Assembly (NCBI RefSeq): GCF_009765985.1
Contig: NZ_LMUM01000016.1
Location: forward strand, 1-64,000
DNA: 64,000 nucleotides
Reading direction: 5' to 3'
Source: Acidobacterium sp. S8
GTDB lineage: Bacteria; Acidobacteriota; Terriglobia; Terriglobales; Acidobacteriaceae
The position numbers and the translations under genes were made by a program. Position 1 is the first letter of the stretch; every line of letters begins with the position of its first letter. The notes under the pieces are model-generated. The model was not told the DNA's origin and did not search any database. It saw only the letters and a program-made list of their open reading frames with translations. Positions 2,353 through 23,981 of this stretch are shown piece after piece.

Positions 2353-3381
2353 TCATTCGATGGGCTGTAGCTTAAGCTGATTTTCGACGTGGATCTTTGA
2401 GGCCATCTCCATCTCTTGTTTCGCTTCATCCTCCTGACCGACTTTTCGATAGGCCTGAGCAAGCAGCGTGTGGGTGATAAAGTTTGCTGGGTCCATTTTC
2501 TCCGCATGCTTCAGGTACATAATGGAGCTCACCGGATCCTGCCTGCGCAGCAGCACCTTACCCATTTGGATAAACGACCCTGTGCTGGACGTATCGAGCG
2601 AGATGGCTTTTGTCAGCGCTTCTTGCGCGTCCTGAAGTCTGTCCGTCCGCGTGTAAACGTCTCCCAACCGGTCGTAGACGGGCGCATAACCAGGATTCAA
2701 CAGACGCTCCTTTTCAAACTCCTGCAATGCGTGATCCACATCCGACTTGAAAAGATAGACCTCACCAAGCAGGAAGTGCGCCAATGGAAGATTCGGTGCG
2801 AGCTGAAGAGCTTTTTGTGCTTGTATCGCCGCGAACTCTTCGAGGTTCGCCCGCTGGAGCATAGAGCCCAATAACAGATAGGCGGCGCCGGAGTCTGGGT
2901 TCACTTTGAATCCAGTCGCAAATGCTCGGCGTGCGTCATCGTAACGCTGTGCGTTCATGTAGCAAAGGCCAAGCACATAATTGGCGTCAGCATTTGAATT
3001 GGGAGTCCATTCACGCACCCGTTCGAGATAAGGAATCGCGTCGGCTGGGCGGCCGAGACGATAAAGTGTGAGACCCTGCATCTGCACTGACTCAGCATCG
3101 GACGAATCTTCCTGGATGGCGGCAGCGAATGCGCGCTGAGCTTCTAACAGCTTGCCGGTCCGATAGTATGCGATTCCCAGCTCGTGCTGCAGTCCCTTGA
3201 CTGGTGGATGGATAGCAGCCAGCTTCTGAAGCAGTGCGATAGCTTCCGCCTGTTGACCTTGTTCCAGATCCTTGTGCGCCAATGCAAGAGACTGTTGAGT
3301 AGTATCGGCGGGTGAGGAGGATTGGCCACTGGCTGAGGGGACTACGACGAGCAAAAAGGCAAAAAGCGGTACGATACGCAT
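2353..3381 (-). CDS. Secreted tetratricopeptide-repeat protein
   Basis: Exported TPR protein of 342 residues. A signal peptide (RIVPLFAFLLVVVPSASG) is followed by about eight 34-residue TPR units from residue 30 to the end; A/Y/L positions recur in units such as YYRTGKLLEAQRAFAAAIQE, YMNAQRYDDARRAFATGFKV and YTRTDRLQDAQEALTKAISL. TPR arrays bind proteins and no catalytic motif is seen. The start codon overlaps the 5' region of the divergent ASPIC/UnbV gene at 3425, so both share a promoter zone of under 50 bases. TPR plus FG-GAP/ASPIC pairs recur in Acidobacteriota; their function is unknown. Confidence 0.85.
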   Translation of the reverse strand: MRIVPLFAFLLVVVPSASGQSSSPADTTQQSLALAHKDLEQGQQAEAIALLQKLAAIHPPVKGLQHELGIAYYRTGKLLEAQRAFAAAIQEDSSDAESVQMQGLTLYRLGRPADAIPYLERVREWTPNSNADANYVLGLCYMNAQRYDDARRAFATGFKVNPDSGAAYLLLGSMLQRANLEEFAAIQAQKALQLAPNLPLAHFLLGEVYLFKSDVDHALQEFEKERLLNPGYAPVYDRLGDVYTRTDRLQDAQEALTKAISLDTSSTGSFIQMGKVLLRRQDPVSSIMYLKHAEKMDPANFITHTLLAQAYRKVGQEDEAKQEMEMASKIHVENQLKLQPIE

Positions 3382-3424
3382 GACACTTGTAGCATACTGC
3401 GAGATCAGAAATGATAAGTGCTTG

Positions 3425-5224
3425 ATGCGCTGCCCATCCCAGATCAGAATCCGGATCGCAAGTCATTTCGCCGCTACGGCAATTTTATACGTTCTTCTCA
3501 TTGTCTCTGTAACAACATCCATCGGACAGACACAGCGAAGCAGGCTCGTGAGGGCGCCGGTTCATCCATATGCCGCGAGCGATAGTCACCCCGGACCGGC
3601 TTGGTTCGCAAATGTCGCTCCGGAAGCCGGGCTGACCATGCAGAACGTGAACGGAGATGCAGCTTCCAAAAAGTACATCATCGAAACGACAGGCAGCGGC
3701 GTTGCCATTCTCGACTATGACCGCGACGGCTGGCCTGACATTCTCCTGCTCAATGGCCGCACTCTCGACGGAGAACCGTCTCCGGTGGTGCACCCTACCA
3801 ATCATCTCTATCGTAACAATCACGATGGCACTTTTAAAGATGTGACCGCAGAGTCAGGATTGACTGCATCTGGATGGGCGCAGGGTGTCTGCGTCGGAGA
3901 CTATGACAACGACGGTTACAACGATCTTTACATTACCTACTATGGCAAAAACCGGCTTTACCATAACGAGCGGAATGGAGCCTTCAAAGAGGTAGCAGGT
4001 CCAACTGGTGTATCTGGCAATGGCGAAGCCTGGGGAACCGGCTGTGCCTTCGTAGATTACGATCGGGATGGCAAGCTTGATCTGATGGTGGCGAACTACG
4101 TTCAACTGGATCTCAAGTCGCTGCCAAAGCCCGGCGAAGGTCTTACCTGTATATGGAAAGGAACGCCGGTGATGTGTGGACCACGCGGTCTTCCTTTCAC
4201 AACGAACATTCTCTATCACAATCTGGACGGCAAGAAGTTTGAAGATGTGAGTCGAGCCAGCGGCATTACCAAAACCAATGGACACTACTGTTTTAGCGTC
4301 TCCACACTTGACTACAATCGCGATGGCTGGCCCGATATCTATGTGGCATGCGACAGCACACCCAGTATTCTCTACCGCAACAATAAGGACGGCACCTTTA
4401 CCGATGTAGCCCCTGATGCCGGTGTAGGCTATGACGAAGACGGCCGTGAGCAGGCAGGTATGGGAACGGCCATAGGAGATTACGACGGTGATGGTTGGCC
4501 AGATGTCTTCAAGACCAATTTCTCGGACGACACCTCGTCGCTCTATCACAACAACGGGGATGGGACATTTACGGCAGCTATCGCAGACGCAGGACTTGGC
4601 CTCAATACGCAGTATCTCGGCTGGGGCACCATGTTTTTGGATGTGGACAACAGCGGCCTTCTTGACATTATTATTGCCAATGGCCATGTTTATCCCCAAG
4701 TAGATTACGCGCACTTAGGCTCGTCGTATCGAGAGCCTCGCCTCCTCTATCAAAATCTGGGAAACGGGAAGTTCAAAGACATTAGCAAGAACGCAGGCCC
4801 TGGTTGCACGGAGCTCGCGCCCAGTCGTGGGCTGGCAGTAGCTGATCTCTGGAACGACGGTCGTCTTTCCGCGGTGATTAACAACATCGATGAAAAACCA
4901 ATGCTGCTGGTTAACCTCGTGTCCAATAGTAACCACTGGCTAGGCGTCTTTACGCAAGGTACGCGCTCCAATCGTGACGGAATTGGAACACAGGTTACCG
5001 TGGTTGCGGGCGGGCGAAAATGGCTCCAGGAAGTACGTAGTGGGTCGAGCTATATTTCCAGCAGCGATCTTCGCCTGCACTTCGGATTGGGACCGATCAC
5101 AACGATCGATCATATTGAGGTGCTGTGGCCCAGTGGGATGACTGAACACTTCACCGTCAATGGCGTTGACCGGTTCGTCACCCTTGTCGAAGGTGCTGGC
5201 TCACAGAAACCAGCCGATCAGTAA
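3425..5224 (+). CDS. Secreted FG-GAP/VCBS-repeat protein with C-terminal ASPIC/UnbV domain (CRTAC1-like)
   Basis: About 599 residues from the ATG at 3425. That start is preferred over the upstream one at 3380 because it begins directly on a signal peptide (FAATAILYVLLIVSVTTSIG). The body is a seven-bladed FG-GAP/VCBS propeller with repeated calcium-binding loops (DYDRDGWPDILLLNG, DYDNDGYNDLYITYYG, DYDRDGKLDLMVANY, DYNRDGWPDIYVACD, DYDGDGWPDVFKTNF, DVDNSGLLDIIIANG) about 55-100 residues apart. The C-terminal ASPIC/UnbV module shows GIGTQVTVVAGGRKWLQEV and LHFGLGPITTIDHIEVLWPS. It is probably an exported adhesion or binding protein. It is divergent from the TPR gene. Confidence 0.9.
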   Translation: MRCPSQIRIRIASHFAATAILYVLLIVSVTTSIGQTQRSRLVRAPVHPYAASDSHPGPAWFANVAPEAGLTMQNVNGDAASKKYIIETTGSGVAILDYDRDGWPDILLLNGRTLDGEPSPVVHPTNHLYRNNHDGTFKDVTAESGLTASGWAQGVCVGDYDNDGYNDLYITYYGKNRLYHNERNGAFKEVAGPTGVSGNGEAWGTGCAFVDYDRDGKLDLMVANYVQLDLKSLPKPGEGLTCIWKGTPVMCGPRGLPFTTNILYHNLDGKKFEDVSRASGITKTNGHYCFSVSTLDYNRDGWPDIYVACDSTPSILYRNNKDGTFTDVAPDAGVGYDEDGREQAGMGTAIGDYDGDGWPDVFKTNFSDDTSSLYHNNGDGTFTAAIADAGLGLNTQYLGWGTMFLDVDNSGLLDIIIANGHVYPQVDYAHLGSSYREPRLLYQNLGNGKFKDISKNAGPGCTELAPSRGLAVADLWNDGRLSAVINNIDEKPMLLVNLVSNSNHWLGVFTQGTRSNRDGIGTQVTVVAGGRKWLQEVRSGSSYISSSDLRLHFGLGPITTIDHIEVLWPSGMTEHFTVNGVDRFVTLVEGAGSQKPADQ

Positions 5225-19339: not shown

Positions 19340-21364
19340 ATGCCAGTCCTAAAGGCGTTTTTCTCGTCTGGCCCATTCATGCCTCATGGGTACTGCTATA
19401 TGTGGGACCCAGGCCTGGTGTGGTTGCATGTTATCTCAGACTCTCTGATTGCGTTGTCTTACCTTTCCATTCCATTCACACTCGGGTACTTTGTTCGCAA
19501 GCGTAGAGATCTTCCATTTCACTGGATGTTTGTCTGCTTTGGCATTTTCATCCTTGCCTGCGGTGCAACACACGCAATGGAGGTGTGGACTCTGTGGCAT
19601 GCGGACTACTGGGTGTCCGCATCGATCAAGGCCATCACTGCCATGGCTTCCGTACCTACTGCCATCTTACTTTTGAAGCTGGTTCCTCACGCCGTCGCAT
19701 TGCCGAGTCCCGCGGCACTACGGCTTGAAATCGCTAAACGGAGCCGTGCAGAAAAAGAGCTGAGTTTGGCAAAGGCGGAACTGCAACGACGGGTCGAGAA
19801 AAGGACAGCGGAGCTCAGGAAAGTCAATGAAGACCTGCTCCTCGAGATCGATCAACGCAGGCGCATAGAGCAAACGCTTAGGAACAGCGAAGGGCAGCTC
19901 CGGCTAGCGCAGGAAGCCTCAGGATTGGGTGTGTGGGACTGGAATCCCCGCATGGACATTGCTGTATGGTCCGATCAGCACTTTCAAATTTTTGGTCTTA
20001 AGCCAAGCGGACAGACGTTCGACGAAATAAGCTTTATTTCGCTGATTTATCCCGAGGATCGCGCGGCCGTGAAACTGGCTATTCGCGAAGCACTTCGACC
20101 GGGCGGAGAATTTGATGTCGAGTATCGGATTCAGAGACAGGATGGTCAACTTCGCTGGGTGCTGAGCCAAGGGCTGACCCATTGCGACAGCGCAGGCGAA
20201 CCTTTCCGGATGATCGGTGTGACTCTAGATGTTACTGAGCGCAGGCAGGCTGCCGAAGAACTGCGTCGAAGCGAAGAGCGATTTCGCCTTTTAGTGGAAG
20301 GTACCGCAGACTACGCTATTTTCATGCTGGACCCGGCAGGATTCGTTACCAGCTGGAATAGCGGAGCGGAGCGTATCAAAGGATACCAGGCGCAGGAGAT
20401 TATCGGACAACACTTCTCCTGTTTTTATTGTGACGAAGATTTGCGTAAGGGCAGGCCAGCGAAGGCCCTGCGAGAAGCAGCCACGGCAGGCAGGTTCGAA
20501 GAAGACGGGTGTTGGCTCCGTAAAGATGGATCGCGCTTCCAGGCAAATGCGATTCTCACCGCATTGCACGACCAGAACGAAGAGTTGATTGGTTTCGCCA
20601 AGATTACGCGGGATCTGACGGAAAGCCGACGGGCGGATCAGGCTGTTCAGGAAGCTCAGGCAGAACTGGCGTGGGTCATCAGAATGTCTACTATGAGCGA
20701 GTTGACCGCTTCGATTGCGCATGAAATTAACCAACCGCTTACTGCAATCGTCAACAATGCCAACGCGAGCAGGCGGATTCTGGCTAACGCCGCACCGGAT
20801 CTCGGGGAGGTGCAACAGGCGGTGACCGATATTGCGGAAGCAGGAACACGGGCAGCAGAAATCATTTCACGCATCCGCGAATTGCTCAAGAAAAGTGTTC
20901 CGGAGAAGACGCCGTTGGATATGAATCAGTTGATTCATGAGGTGGTGGCCTTTATCCCGGGCATACTGGAAAAGCAACATATTTCCATGGAGATGGAATT
21001 GTGGGCTGCACTTCCACCAGTAATGGGCGACAGAGTGCAGATGCAGCAGGTTCTGCTGAACCTGATCATGAACGGTATCGAAGCAATGACCACAATTTTA
21101 GACCGCCCGCGAGTTCTGGTGATCCGCTCCGACGCGCGCGAATCCGGCCTGGAGGTCGCCGTGCAGGATTCCGGCACCGGGCTTGATCCCCGGCATATCG
21201 ACCAATTATTCCATACATTCTTTACAACGAAAATAAACGGAATGGGCATGGGTTTGTCCATCAGCCGCTCGATCATTGAGGCGCACAGCGGCCGGTTGTG
21301 GGCCAGCAATGATCCCACAACCCACGGGGCGACTTTTCGCTTTTCCTTGCCGGCTATGGCATAG
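19340..21364 (+). CDS. Sensor histidine kinase with plant ethylene-receptor-like membrane domain
   Basis: 674 residues. Residues 15-117 form three membrane helices closely resembling the ethylene-binding domain of plant ETR1: LHVISDSLIALSYLSIPFTL matches helix 1 including Asp34, and IFILACGATHAMEVWTLWH matches helix 2 with Cys74 and His78, the Cys/His pair that holds copper in ETR1. A coiled coil (about 130-182) follows, then PAS (185-300, GVWDWNPRMDIAVWSDQHFQ), a second PAS/PAC (310-428), a HisKA dimerisation helix with His461 (SIAHEINQPLTAIVNN) and an HATPase domain (N box LIMNGIEAM, G boxes DSGTGLDP and GMGMGLSISRS). GAGGTG lies before ATG 19340. The response regulator starts nine bases later. 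Confidence 0.92.
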   Translation: MPVLKAFFSSGPFMPHGYCYMWDPGLVWLHVISDSLIALSYLSIPFTLGYFVRKRRDLPFHWMFVCFGIFILACGATHAMEVWTLWHADYWVSASIKAITAMASVPTAILLLKLVPHAVALPSPAALRLEIAKRSRAEKELSLAKAELQRRVEKRTAELRKVNEDLLLEIDQRRRIEQTLRNSEGQLRLAQEASGLGVWDWNPRMDIAVWSDQHFQIFGLKPSGQTFDEISFISLIYPEDRAAVKLAIREALRPGGEFDVEYRIQRQDGQLRWVLSQGLTHCDSAGEPFRMIGVTLDVTERRQAAEELRRSEERFRLLVEGTADYAIFMLDPAGFVTSWNSGAERIKGYQAQEIIGQHFSCFYCDEDLRKGRPAKALREAATAGRFEEDGCWLRKDGSRFQANAILTALHDQNEELIGFAKITRDLTESRRADQAVQEAQAELAWVIRMSTMSELTASIAHEINQPLTAIVNNANASRRILANAAPDLGEVQQAVTDIAEAGTRAAEIISRIRELLKKSVPEKTPLDMNQLIHEVVAFIPGILEKQHISMEMELWAALPPVMGDRVQMQQVLLNLIMNGIEAMTTILDRPRVLVIRSDARESGLEVAVQDSGTGLDPRHIDQLFHTFFTTKINGMGMGLSISRSIIEAHSGRLWASNDPTTHGATFRFSLPAMA

Positions 21365-21373
21365 GCGTATGCG

Positions 21374-21994
21374 ATGAACGAAACGCCTCCAACTGTGTTT
21401 GTCGTGGACGACGAGCCTTCGGTTTGTGTTTCTCTTAAGAGACTGCTACGCTCGGTTGGCATTGAGGCCCAGACTTTCTCATCAGCACAGGAATTTCTGC
21501 GCTGCGTGCGTCCCAATGCTCCGGGGTGCCTGGTCCTTGACGTTCGCCTTCCCGGACTAAGCGGACTGGATCTTCAGAAGGAGCTTGCTGCTGAGAAGAT
21601 AGCTCTTCCAATTGTTTTTATCACTGGCCATGGTGACATTCCGATGTCCGTTCGAGCCATGAAGGCCGGCGCGATTGAGTTCCTCATCAAGCCCTTCCGC
21701 GAACAGGATCTGCTGGAAGCAATCCAGCGCGGGATCGAACAAAGCCACATCCTGAGACGACGCAGCGCTGAAATGCGCATATTGCAACAGCGCTATGCAT
21801 TGCTGACACCCCGTGAGCGAGAGGTCTTCCCTTGCGTGACGAGCGGTTTGTTGAATAAGCAGATAGCCGCGCAGCTAGGAGCAAGCGAGAAGACCATCAA
21901 GGTTCATCGCGGTCAGGTTATGCAGAAGATGAAAGCGGTATCATTGGCTGATCTGATCCACATGGCCGAGAAGCTTGGCCTCCACGCCAATTGA
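21374..21994 (+). CDS. FixJ/NarL-type response regulator
   Basis: 206 residues: an N-terminal receiver (FVVDDEPSVCVSLKRLL; phospho-acceptor Asp in CLVLDVRLPGLSG; Thr/Lys in VFITGHGDIPMSVR and EFLIKPF) and a C-terminal LuxR-type helix-turn-helix (LTPREREVFPCVTSGLLNKQ; LGASEKTIKVHRGQVMQKM). All receiver switch residues are present. It follows the ethylene-receptor-like kinase by nine bases and is its likely cognate partner. The subfamily matches FixJ/TodT regulators, whose partner kinases have the same HisKA sequence style. Confidence 0.92.
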   Translation: MNETPPTVFVVDDEPSVCVSLKRLLRSVGIEAQTFSSAQEFLRCVRPNAPGCLVLDVRLPGLSGLDLQKELAAEKIALPIVFITGHGDIPMSVRAMKAGAIEFLIKPFREQDLLEAIQRGIEQSHILRRRSAEMRILQQRYALLTPREREVFPCVTSGLLNKQIAAQLGASEKTIKVHRGQVMQKMKAVSLADLIHMAEKLGLHAN

Positions 21995-22185
21995 TCCCAG
22001 TCTTATGGGACCAAGATCCAATAGACAAGCCGCACTACCAGCGCTACGCTCCATTCATAGAAGCAAGTGAGGCGAATGAGTTTACGACCCGCGGGTACGC
22101 AAGACAATCGGCGGGCCTCTTCTCGATCGATCACTGGGATCCGGATTTATTAGCCAACACGAGTTCAGGCTCAAGGAGGGGAGCC

Positions 22186-22572
22186 ATGGCTGAGACTACA
22201 CACATAGCGATCGTGGATGACGACCTATGGATGCGCAGGTCCCTTGAAAGGCTCCTCAAGTCCGCTGGATTACGGGCTGAAAGTTTCGCTTCGGCAGAGG
22301 ACTACGTTGTCGCCGGCAGTCACGAAGGGATTGGCTGCATCATTCTGGACATAGGACTGCCTGGCATGAGCGGATTTGAGCTGCAACGCCGCCTGGCAGC
22401 AGAACACAACGGATTACCGGTAGTATTTGTTTCGGCGCGCGACGAACCAGAGGTACGACACGAGGCTGCACAGGCAGGAGCGGTTGCTTTCCTTGGCAAG
22501 CCGTTCGAAGATAATGCACTGCTAAACGCTGTTCACATAGCCCTCAAGTTAGCGAAAAGACGAACACAGTGA
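22186..22572 (+). CDS. Single-domain response regulator (receiver only)
   Basis: 128 residues with only a receiver: AIVDDDLWMRRSLERLLKSA, phospho-acceptor Asp in CIILDIGLPGMSGFELQ, Ser in VVFVSARDEPEVRHE and Lys in VAFLGKPFEDNALL. The open frame continues up to 21991, but ATG 22186 has AAGGAGGGGAGCC just before it and begins at the domain edge. There is no output domain, so it may act as a phosphate sink or shuttle in the kinase cluster, or bind a protein target. It is close to FixJ-type receivers and likely derived from the gene before it. Confidence 0.88.
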   Translation: MAETTHIAIVDDDLWMRRSLERLLKSAGLRAESFASAEDYVVAGSHEGIGCIILDIGLPGMSGFELQRRLAAEHNGLPVVFVSARDEPEVRHEAAQAGAVAFLGKPFEDNALLNAVHIALKLAKRRTQ

Positions 22573-22772
22573 CGTCTTCGTGCTTTGTATCTGCATTCGC
22601 GCAGGTGCAGTGAGTTCGAGTTTTCCAATGAAGTCTGCCACTTTGCGATGTGTCCTAAGGACCACCGCCAAAAGGCAAAATCGGCAAAACGCTGGAGGAT
22701 TCACGTGTCGACTACAAATAAAATCATTGCTGATCATGGGGAAGTCTCGGAACTCCCCGCAAACCATATACG

Positions 22773-23396
22773 GTGTTGATCGCAGATGAGCATCCGATCG
22801 TACGCGAGGGATTGGCAACGCTGATCAACCGCACGTTTGACATGCAGGTCGTCGCTGAGGCGTCCAATGGTCAGGAAGCAGTGGAGAAATATGCTGCACA
22901 GTCTCCTAACATTGCTCTCCTTGAATTGAGATTGCCGATCATGAATGGCGTGGAGACAGTCATGTCCATTTGCGCGAAAGAGCCGGCTGCGCGTCTCATC
23001 GTTTTTACGACATGTCAGGGTGAGGAAGATATCTATCGAGCGCTGAAGGCGGGCGCTTATGGATATCTTTTCAAGAATACATCGCTCAATGAGCTCGTCG
23101 AATGTATTCGCGCCGTGGCGCAAGGCAAGAGGTGGATTCCTCCCGCAGTCGCGGCCCAGCTAGGAAAGAGAGTCGCCGACCGCGGGCTGACGTTTAGGGA
23201 AACGGAAGTTCTCCGAGCGGTTACCAACGGCAAAAGCAACAAGGAGATCGGCGCGCTGCTGGATATAAGTGAAGCGACGGTGAAGGTACACATGACGCAT
23301 ATTCTGGAGAAGCTCAATGTGACCGGACGCACGGAAGCGATCAATGTAGCGTTCAGACGGGGCCTCGTGCATATGGATCCAGTTGCGGCCGCGTGA
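22773..23396 (+). CDS. NarL-type response regulator with Glu at the phospho-acceptor site; 5' end frameshifted
   Basis: Receiver plus LuxR helix-turn-helix (FRETEVLRAVTNGKSNKEIG; DISEATVKVHMTHILEKLNV). The phospho-acceptor position reads IALLELRLPIMNG, with Glu instead of Asp, while the acidic pocket (LIADEHPIV) and Lys (GYLFKN) remain. Glu can mimic phosphorylation, so it may be constitutively active (inference). The continuous frame has only GTG 22773, inside the first beta strand. A better start is GTG 22705 behind GGAGGATTCAC (MSTTNKIIADHGEVSELPA): adding one A to the AAA run at 22761-22763 would join it to KPYTVLIADEHP. Either a real frameshift or a read error. Confidence 0.82.
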   Translation: MLIADEHPIVREGLATLINRTFDMQVVAEASNGQEAVEKYAAQSPNIALLELRLPIMNGVETVMSICAKEPAARLIVFTTCQGEEDIYRALKAGAYGYLFKNTSLNELVECIRAVAQGKRWIPPAVAAQLGKRVADRGLTFRETEVLRAVTNGKSNKEIGALLDISEATVKVHMTHILEKLNVTGRTEAINVAFRRGLVHMDPVAAA

Positions 23397-23666: not shown

Positions 23667-23981
23667 GTGGCGGCGATTGGTTGCAGATACGAAGCCGCAG
23701 GCTTCGTATTTGCATCGAAAAACAAAACCCCACTCGCGAAGGAAAATGTCTGGCGTCGAAACATTCTTCCCAGATTGTCAAAGATTCGATTGGAATGGGC
23801 CAATTTCCAAGTGATGCGGCGCACGCATGCCAGCATCATGAAGGAATTGGGGGTCGATCCCAAATGGGTAGCTGACCAGCTAGGACACAGCTTGGATGTA
23901 AGCCAGAACGTGTACACACAGGTCTCGGTAAAACAAAGACTTGAGGCAGTACAGCAGCTGGAAACAGCCTTAGTCATGTAA
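23667..23981 (+). pseudogene. Tyrosine recombinase (phage-type integrase), C-terminal remnant
   Basis: About 104 residues of the catalytic C-terminus of a site-specific integrase: FVFASKNKTPLAKENVWRRN, then the Arg of the RRTHASIMKELGVDPKWVAD block, the His of QLGHSLDVSQN and the nucleophile Tyr of VYTQVSVKQRLEAV. The N-terminal about 250-300 residues are missing; the DNA at 23400-23660 is closed by stops in all useful frames. It lies directly upstream of the 3' end of tRNA-Gly, the classic site for such integrases, so it marks the edge of a decayed integrative element. Confidence 0.8.

Follow-up and report, generated by a model that had tools for sequence, protein, structure and literature searches.

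Saturable binding of 14C-ethylene by a bacterial receptor has been reported for AzoEtr1 of Azospirillum brasilense, using residues 1–130 of the protein in yeast, with little or no binding described for gene-disrupted cells (PMC11819568). AzoEtr1 is a 525 aa protein in which a three-helix domain is followed by one PAS domain and a kinase core; a response regulator, described as a 135-aa receiver without an output domain, is encoded just downstream, and residues D35, C75, H79 and K98 of the receptor have been equated with D25, C65, H69 and K91 of Arabidopsis ETR1 (PMC11819568). Likewise, the kinase SynEtr1 of the bacterium Synechocystis is an ethylene receptor with a response regulator as its signalling target, and is also a light receptor (PMC6682694). 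According to the same 2019 paper, cyanobacterial receptors carry one cysteine near the N-terminus, as against two in plants, and this residue is suggested to form a disulfide. In ETR1, which is described as signalling mainly through CTR1, seven residues are reported as required for ethylene binding (PMC6682694; PMC11819568), and a C4S,C6S variant is reported to lose the disulfide-linked dimer and to show markedly lower ethylene binding on solubilisation. A 2026 review cites EXAFS in support of Cys65 and His69 as the Cu(I) ligands, and describes a salt bridge between the Asp and a conserved Lys, with substitution of the Asp by Asn costing approximately 100-fold in affinity.

Here we analysed a 64,000 nucleotide window of the Acidobacterium sp. 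S8 genome (contig NZ_LMUM01000016.1), in which a first-pass annotation had proposed a histidine kinase with an ETR1-like ethylene-sensing domain. The gene (19340–21364, forward strand, as are all features given below for the window) codes for 674 aa followed by a stop codon, and since the stop-to-stop frame, at 680 aa, is only six codons longer at its start, the N-terminus of the kinase is well fixed. A promoter scan gave one promoter-like site against 3.4 expected. The Pfam model ETR1_N (PF25487) matches residues 26–121 (19415–19702) with an E-value of 9.5e-40 and 135.2 bits against a cut-off of 27, which is far beyond chance. It is followed, in order, by two PAS domains (residues 209–294, 19964–20221, PF08447 (PAS_3); and residues 313–422, 20276–20605, PF00989), a HisKA phospho-acceptor domain (residues 452–516, 20693–20887, PF00512) and a HATPase_c catalytic domain (residues 563–672, 21026–21355, PF02518). 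The last two score 36.8 bits (cut-off 26.9) and 71.4 bits (cut-off 26.4), respectively, and a pseudogene reading was rejected because both are over cut-off.

An AlphaFold2 model of residues 1–140, built from a 7-row alignment, has long helices at residues 24–54, 60–86 and 90–120, with a mean pLDDT of 82 overall and of approximately 53 across residues 11–20, the segment that holds a PHGYC motif. The profile match and these helices together bear out the annotation's proposal of three N-terminal helices of the plant ethylene-receptor type, and we refer to the region as the predicted ethylene-binding domain, with three transmembrane helices. Foldseek searches against the PDB and viral models gave no match at E 0.001 or better, and no solved structure matching an ETR1-type copper-site domain was found in this way in the PDB. 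In a PDB sequence search the best 60 of 75 matches cover only the PAS and kinase parts of the protein, and include the ETR1 catalytic domain 4pl9.

The residues singled out in the annotation, Asp34 together with Cys74 and His78 in ACGATHAMEVW, are present at those positions of the 674-aa translation. When the domain was aligned with that of A. brasilense, along whose row D35, C75, H79 and K98 were placed by hand counting, these four residues paired with D34 (19439–19441), C74 and H78 (the putative copper ligands of the CGATH segment, residues 74–78, 19559–19573) and K97 (19628–19630) of the window protein. By way of AzoEtr1, the Asp, Cys and His can be placed on the ETR1 copper site, and the Cys, His, Asp and Lys of the published copper/ethylene site are all kept. 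Should the seven ETR1 residues be D25, Y32, I35, P36, I62, C65 and H69, all would have counterparts in the window protein, namely D34, Y41, I44, P45, I71, C74 and H78. A 14-domain alignment of the window protein with 13 domains from Acidobacteriota, cyanobacteria and proteobacteria has H16, G17, C19, W22, S33, D34, Y41, P45, R55, F70, I71, C74, G75, H78, W86, Y90, K97 and S104 as invariant positions. The domain match and the residue identities thus support the assignment of the kinase to the ETR1-like, predicted ethylene-sensing type.

Over the domain, identity to AzoEtr1 is approximately 50%, with the same Asp, Cys, His and Lys and the same PHGxC motif, whose His and Cys are, by hand counting, His17 and Cys20 of AzoEtr1, and the two systems share the order of three-helix domain, PAS, kinase core and adjacent response regulator. 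They differ in that the window kinase has two PAS domains, and in that its partner gene encodes a DNA-binding regulator of the FixJ type. SynEtr1, which we liken by description and not by sequence, resembles it as a bacterial receptor kinase of this kind and in its single N-terminal cysteine. Arabidopsis ETR1 has the equivalent Cys65/His69 copper site, Asp25 and Lys91 and a kinase-like C-terminus, but it also has a GAF domain and its own receiver, and two N-terminal cysteines instead of PHGxC. The PAS-kinase body and the FixJ-type regulator recall FixL/FixJ, whereas the sensor in the window is a membrane domain predicted to bind ethylene. Residues 192–672 score 326 bits against the FixL model; membership of FixL was rejected, as the cut-off of this NCBIfam equivalog model is 850.

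The gene for the FixJ-type response regulator (receiver and GerE domains, 206 aa, 21374–21994), identified by profile matches, follows the stop codon of the kinase at a distance of 9 bp. Its score against the NCBIfam FixJ equivalog model is 202 bits, short of the cut-off of 255, and it is therefore FixJ-type, not FixJ. Next come a lone receiver protein (21991–22572, PF00072 at residues 72–181), which by eye probably begins at Met codon 22186, shortly ahead of its receiver domain, and a third regulator, recognised as NarL-type by its profile match (22773–23396). The same four genes stand in the same order in a genome from another genus of the family (G455), where the kinase is 78% identical over 674 aa and the FixJ-type regulator 83% identical. 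This conserved order and the adjacency of the genes support the earlier suggestion of a signal to a FixJ-type regulator, to which phosphate would be transferred. In the NarL-type regulators of both the window and G455 a Glu (ELRLP) is seen by eye; it presumably sits where the phospho-acceptor Asp is expected. Compared by eye with the G455 gene, the window's NarL-type gene (22573–23396) may be frameshifted near its start. In a further genome (G459) a receptor kinase adjoins a FixJ-type gene (58% identical). Of 88 open reading frames with the domain, 23 have a same-strand regulator-like match no more than 600 bp downstream, and three have a FixJ-type partner with more than 200 bits; since the latter is found at so few loci, the partnership of kinase and FixJ-type regulator is local and not general. 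Just past the regulator genes of the window is a phage-type integrase fragment of 104 aa (23667–23981; PF00589 profile positions 93–169 of 172), and downstream of the G455 operon (L163, 1076–2144) are two small membrane proteins that are, by eye, MerC-type-like and cation-efflux-like.

The distribution of the domain was scored at E 0.001 or better in sampled genomes, which are not complete sets. ETR1_N has one match in the source genome (5.4 Mb, 99.99% complete) and none in 14 control genomes. PF25487 matches were found in 78 of 300 genomes of the same family (72 over cut-off), in 18 of 396 sampled phylum-wide (17 over cut-off) and in 5 of 162 from another acidobacterial class. In the alphaproteobacterial class of A. 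brasilense 20 of 289 genomes have a match, and in one order within it 8 of 43. Four genomes are listed for the genus of the source genome: the source genome itself is positive, G516 (59% complete) has a weak match (E 1.1e-5), and G453 and G496 have none. Nineteen plasmid records matched the domain by tblastn, seven of them from Azospirillum, two each from Acaryochloris, Rhodovastum and Novosphingobium, and others from Kovacikia, Eleftheria, Pseudanabaena, Blastomonas, Rhizobium and Deinococcus. A contig scan with the whole protein recovered mostly PAS-kinases: among 80 loci only L039, from Candidatus Sulfotelmatobacter, has the domain by HMM, at 71% identity to that of the window. A literature search of limited reach turned up no paper whose title concerns ethylene receptors of acidobacteria or phages.

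A relative of the domain was also seen on a viral contig (L263, IMGVR_UViG_3300045256_000050, 244,986 bp), where positions 2971–4442 encode a 377-aa kinase with an ETR1_N match of 92.8 bits, the motifs PRRVC and CGLTH, and both the Asp and the Lys. The kinase gene is overlapped by that of a 113-aa receiver, and L262, a contig of 80,475 bp taken from a different IMG dataset, is identical over 6,327 bases. The larger contig has a large terminase, with dCMP deaminase and tail-fibre-like genes within approximately 6 kb, and a blastn search with the terminase region gave a single match, an uncultured phage of 595 kb (64.5% over 14%). When the kinase was compared with 50,697 phage records by tblastn, none of the best 30 of 147 matches started before residue 41. 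Judged on these sequences, a phage-borne ethylene receptor is possible.

The survey contains several natural variants of the site. The G455 domain retains D34, Y41, I44, P45, H78 and K97, but has PYGHY for PHGYC and AGSSTH for ACGATH, so that His16, Cys19 and Cys74 are all changed while kinase and regulators are kept. Since Cys74 is lost from an operon that is otherwise retained, either this kinase works without the known copper site or its domain is decaying. Eleven domains, encoded in frames of 370–450 aa, form a subfamily of Acidobacteriaceae receptors (L189, L192, L195–L199, L201, L202, L204 and L206) in which Asn always replaces Asp34, and Lys97 is replaced by Asn in ten members and by Ser in one (L204), with the ligands and PHxxC retained; L185, an Acidobacteriaceae receptor outside the subfamily, also has Asn at both positions. 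From their sequences, these Asn34 receptors, including L185, are possible low-affinity ethylene receptors. Among 112 domains, 89 have both Asp34 and Lys/Arg97, 18 neither, three the Asp only and two the Lys/Arg only; on the tree there are eight Asp-loss and seven Lys-loss events, four on the same branch, against a null mean of 0.83, with as many in 0.28% of 20,000 draws. At the level of sequence, such joint loss fits the published Asp–Lys link. Seven further ETR1_N-like domains (L200, L208–L211, L222 and L223) have lost one or both copper ligands; the open frames around six of them measure 881 to 1,341 aa, and that of L208 measures 489 aa. These domains may respond to a different signal, or may have decayed.

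The PHGYC motif (residues 15–19, 19382–19396), which lies before helix 1 and contains His16 and Cys19, drew attention by its conservation and linked losses. All 14 of the diverse bacterial domains aligned above share H16, G17 and C19 of PHGxC, and because the ETR1_N model starts after the motif, the Pfam searches did not select for it. We scored Cys19 against intact Cys74 and His78 in a first set of 110 domains, and found both in 91, neither in 15 and the two mixed states in two each. On a tree built without the Cys19 and ligand columns, there were ten losses of Cys19 and 11 of the ligands, nine of them on the same branch, against a null mean of 1.08 and a maximum of 5 in 20,000 draws. This set derives from 112 rows, two of which have no residue at column 19 (L146 and L203), and omits L218 (a near-copy of L140), L263 (equal to L262) and L258, L261 and L251 (fragments or a broken frame). 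The first tree and the combined set below also omit L254 and L259, the N-termini of which could not be safely aligned, the combined set further omits L286 (truncated), and L016, L137 and L139 (broken or partial) were left out of all coupling counts. Five viral-contig rows were found by a pattern with CGxTH and are therefore biased to kept ligands. Events were counted by a loss-only rule on single FastTree trees, the groupings of which shifted between runs.

Sixteen usable new domains served as a check: 12 keep both, L288 has lost the ligand only, L279 and L280 Cys19 only, and L281 both. L279 and L280 are one lineage, and the check set thus offers one co-loss among few losing lineages, which is weaker than the first set. 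Combining the two sets (124 domains) gave 103 with both, 15 with neither and three of each mixed state, with 11 Cys19 losses, 12 ligand losses and nine shared. An inclusive set of all 131 alignable domains, which adds L014, L015, L017, L018, L021, L024 and L025 and excludes none with a residue at column 19, has 103 with both, 16 with neither, seven lacking only Cys19 and five lacking only a ligand; here 13 Cys19 and 14 ligand losses include seven shared, against a null mean of 1.39 and a maximum of 6, so that the observed number occurred in 0 of 20,000 draws. L021 and L259 were scored in this set as Cys19 kept and ligands lost, on doubtful alignment. The coupling of Cys19 with the ligands stands, and is looser in the inclusive set. 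Exceptions are L151, L260 and L288, with Cys19 and no Cys74, and L182, L279 and L280, with ligands and no Cys19; L146, L254, L014 and L017, which keep the ligands and have no aligned Cys19, also speak against it, and several co-loss lineages are degenerate throughout.

As a control for specificity, we asked what share of the losses at each position conserved in at least 80% of domains (22 non-ligand positions in the combined set) coincides with ligand loss. In the combined set the shares are 9/11 for Cys19, 6/9 for Ile71, 4/6 for Ser104, 4/7 for Phe70, 8/15 for His16, 6/12 for Gly75, 4/9 for Tyr41, 2/9 for Asp34, 0/7 for Trp86 and 1/7 for Ala101; in the inclusive set they are 6/10 for Ile71, 7/13 for Cys19, 9/17 for His16 and 4/8 for Ser104. 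Ile71 and Tyr41 correspond to the pocket residues Ile62 and Tyr32 of ETR1. By this ranking Cys19 behaves like binding-pocket residues, near the top but not alone.

Two explanations of the motif can be weighed on these data. Cys19 may form an interchain disulfide like Cys4/Cys6 of the plant receptor, with no copper role, and be lost once the receptor is not needed. Alternatively, PHGxC may be a working part of the copper site in which Cu(I) is accepted or partly held by Cys19, possibly together with His16, giving more ligands than the accepted two. The disulfide is the more likely because of the 2019 proposal for the cyanobacterial cysteine and the behaviour of ETR1 C4S,C6S, and the degenerate state of many co-loss lineages, together with the coupling of Ile71 as strong as that of Cys19 in the inclusive set, also suits it; we lean towards it. 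Against it stand the losses of His16, which coincide with those of the ligands more than at most positions in both sets and which a disulfide does not explain, and the G455 protein, in which His16, Cys19 and Cys74 have all changed despite 78% identity overall. Since Cys19 is coupled with the ligands and with His16, and given the G455 case, a copper-site role, not unique to Cys19, is kept as a tentative and rather doubtful proposal.

For the receptor as a whole, the reading that we favour, with a probability of roughly three in four, is that of a bacterial ethylene-receptor histidine kinase that signals to the FixJ-type regulator. The known ligands are those of a Cu(I) site, and the genome encodes Cu-ATPases, as might be expected if the domain bound Cu(I) but worked as a copper or redox sensor. 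However, those ATPases are encoded on contigs C36 and C10 and the kinase on C15, the nearest tested relatives bind ethylene, and Asp34 and Lys97, equivalents of residues that the published accounts tie to ethylene affinity or output, are kept, which makes a copper or redox sensor unlikely. That the domain is a relic, with the kinase running on PAS input and the ethylene site unused, would suit the G455 operon, which lacks Cys19 and Cys74 and keeps its kinase and regulators, and the patchy occurrence of the gene in its own genus; with all aligned site residues intact in the window protein, we consider this very improbable. Counted against the ethylene receptor itself are the Cys74 loss in G455, the scarcity of FixJ-type partners (3/88), the Glu and possible frameshift of the NarL-type regulator, and the failure to find an ACC deaminase over cut-off in the genome (225 bits, cut-off 392).

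If the ethylene-receptor reading holds, Cu(I) would be held in the membrane by Cys74 and His78 of the three-helix domain and would bind ethylene there. The polar link between Asp34 and Lys97 would pass the binding event to helix 3, and the two PAS domains would transmit the change to the core of the kinase, where it would lead to phosphorylation of the FixJ-type regulator encoded immediately downstream and so to action on its target genes; the lone receiver might be a phosphate sink or a side branch. By analogy, ethylene probably lowers kinase output, as inhibition by ethylene is cited for ETR1 and indirect evidence of it for SynEtr1 (PMC11819568). The two Cu-ATPases, both over cut-off, could supply copper to the receptor; since 13 of the 14 control genomes have one too, they lend this little weight. 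Soil microbes or fungi would be as possible as plants as sources of the ethylene.

The ethylene-receptor type is already known, and the window protein adds a member to it. This places a predicted ethylene receptor with intact binding-site residues in the Acidobacteriaceae, which are common soil bacteria, with a DNA-binding regulator encoded alongside, through which the target genes could be reached directly. Natural variants also come out of the survey, with Cys74 lost from an otherwise kept operon or Asp34 and Lys97 turned to Asn together, and a role for the N-terminal cysteine in the copper site becomes a testable idea.
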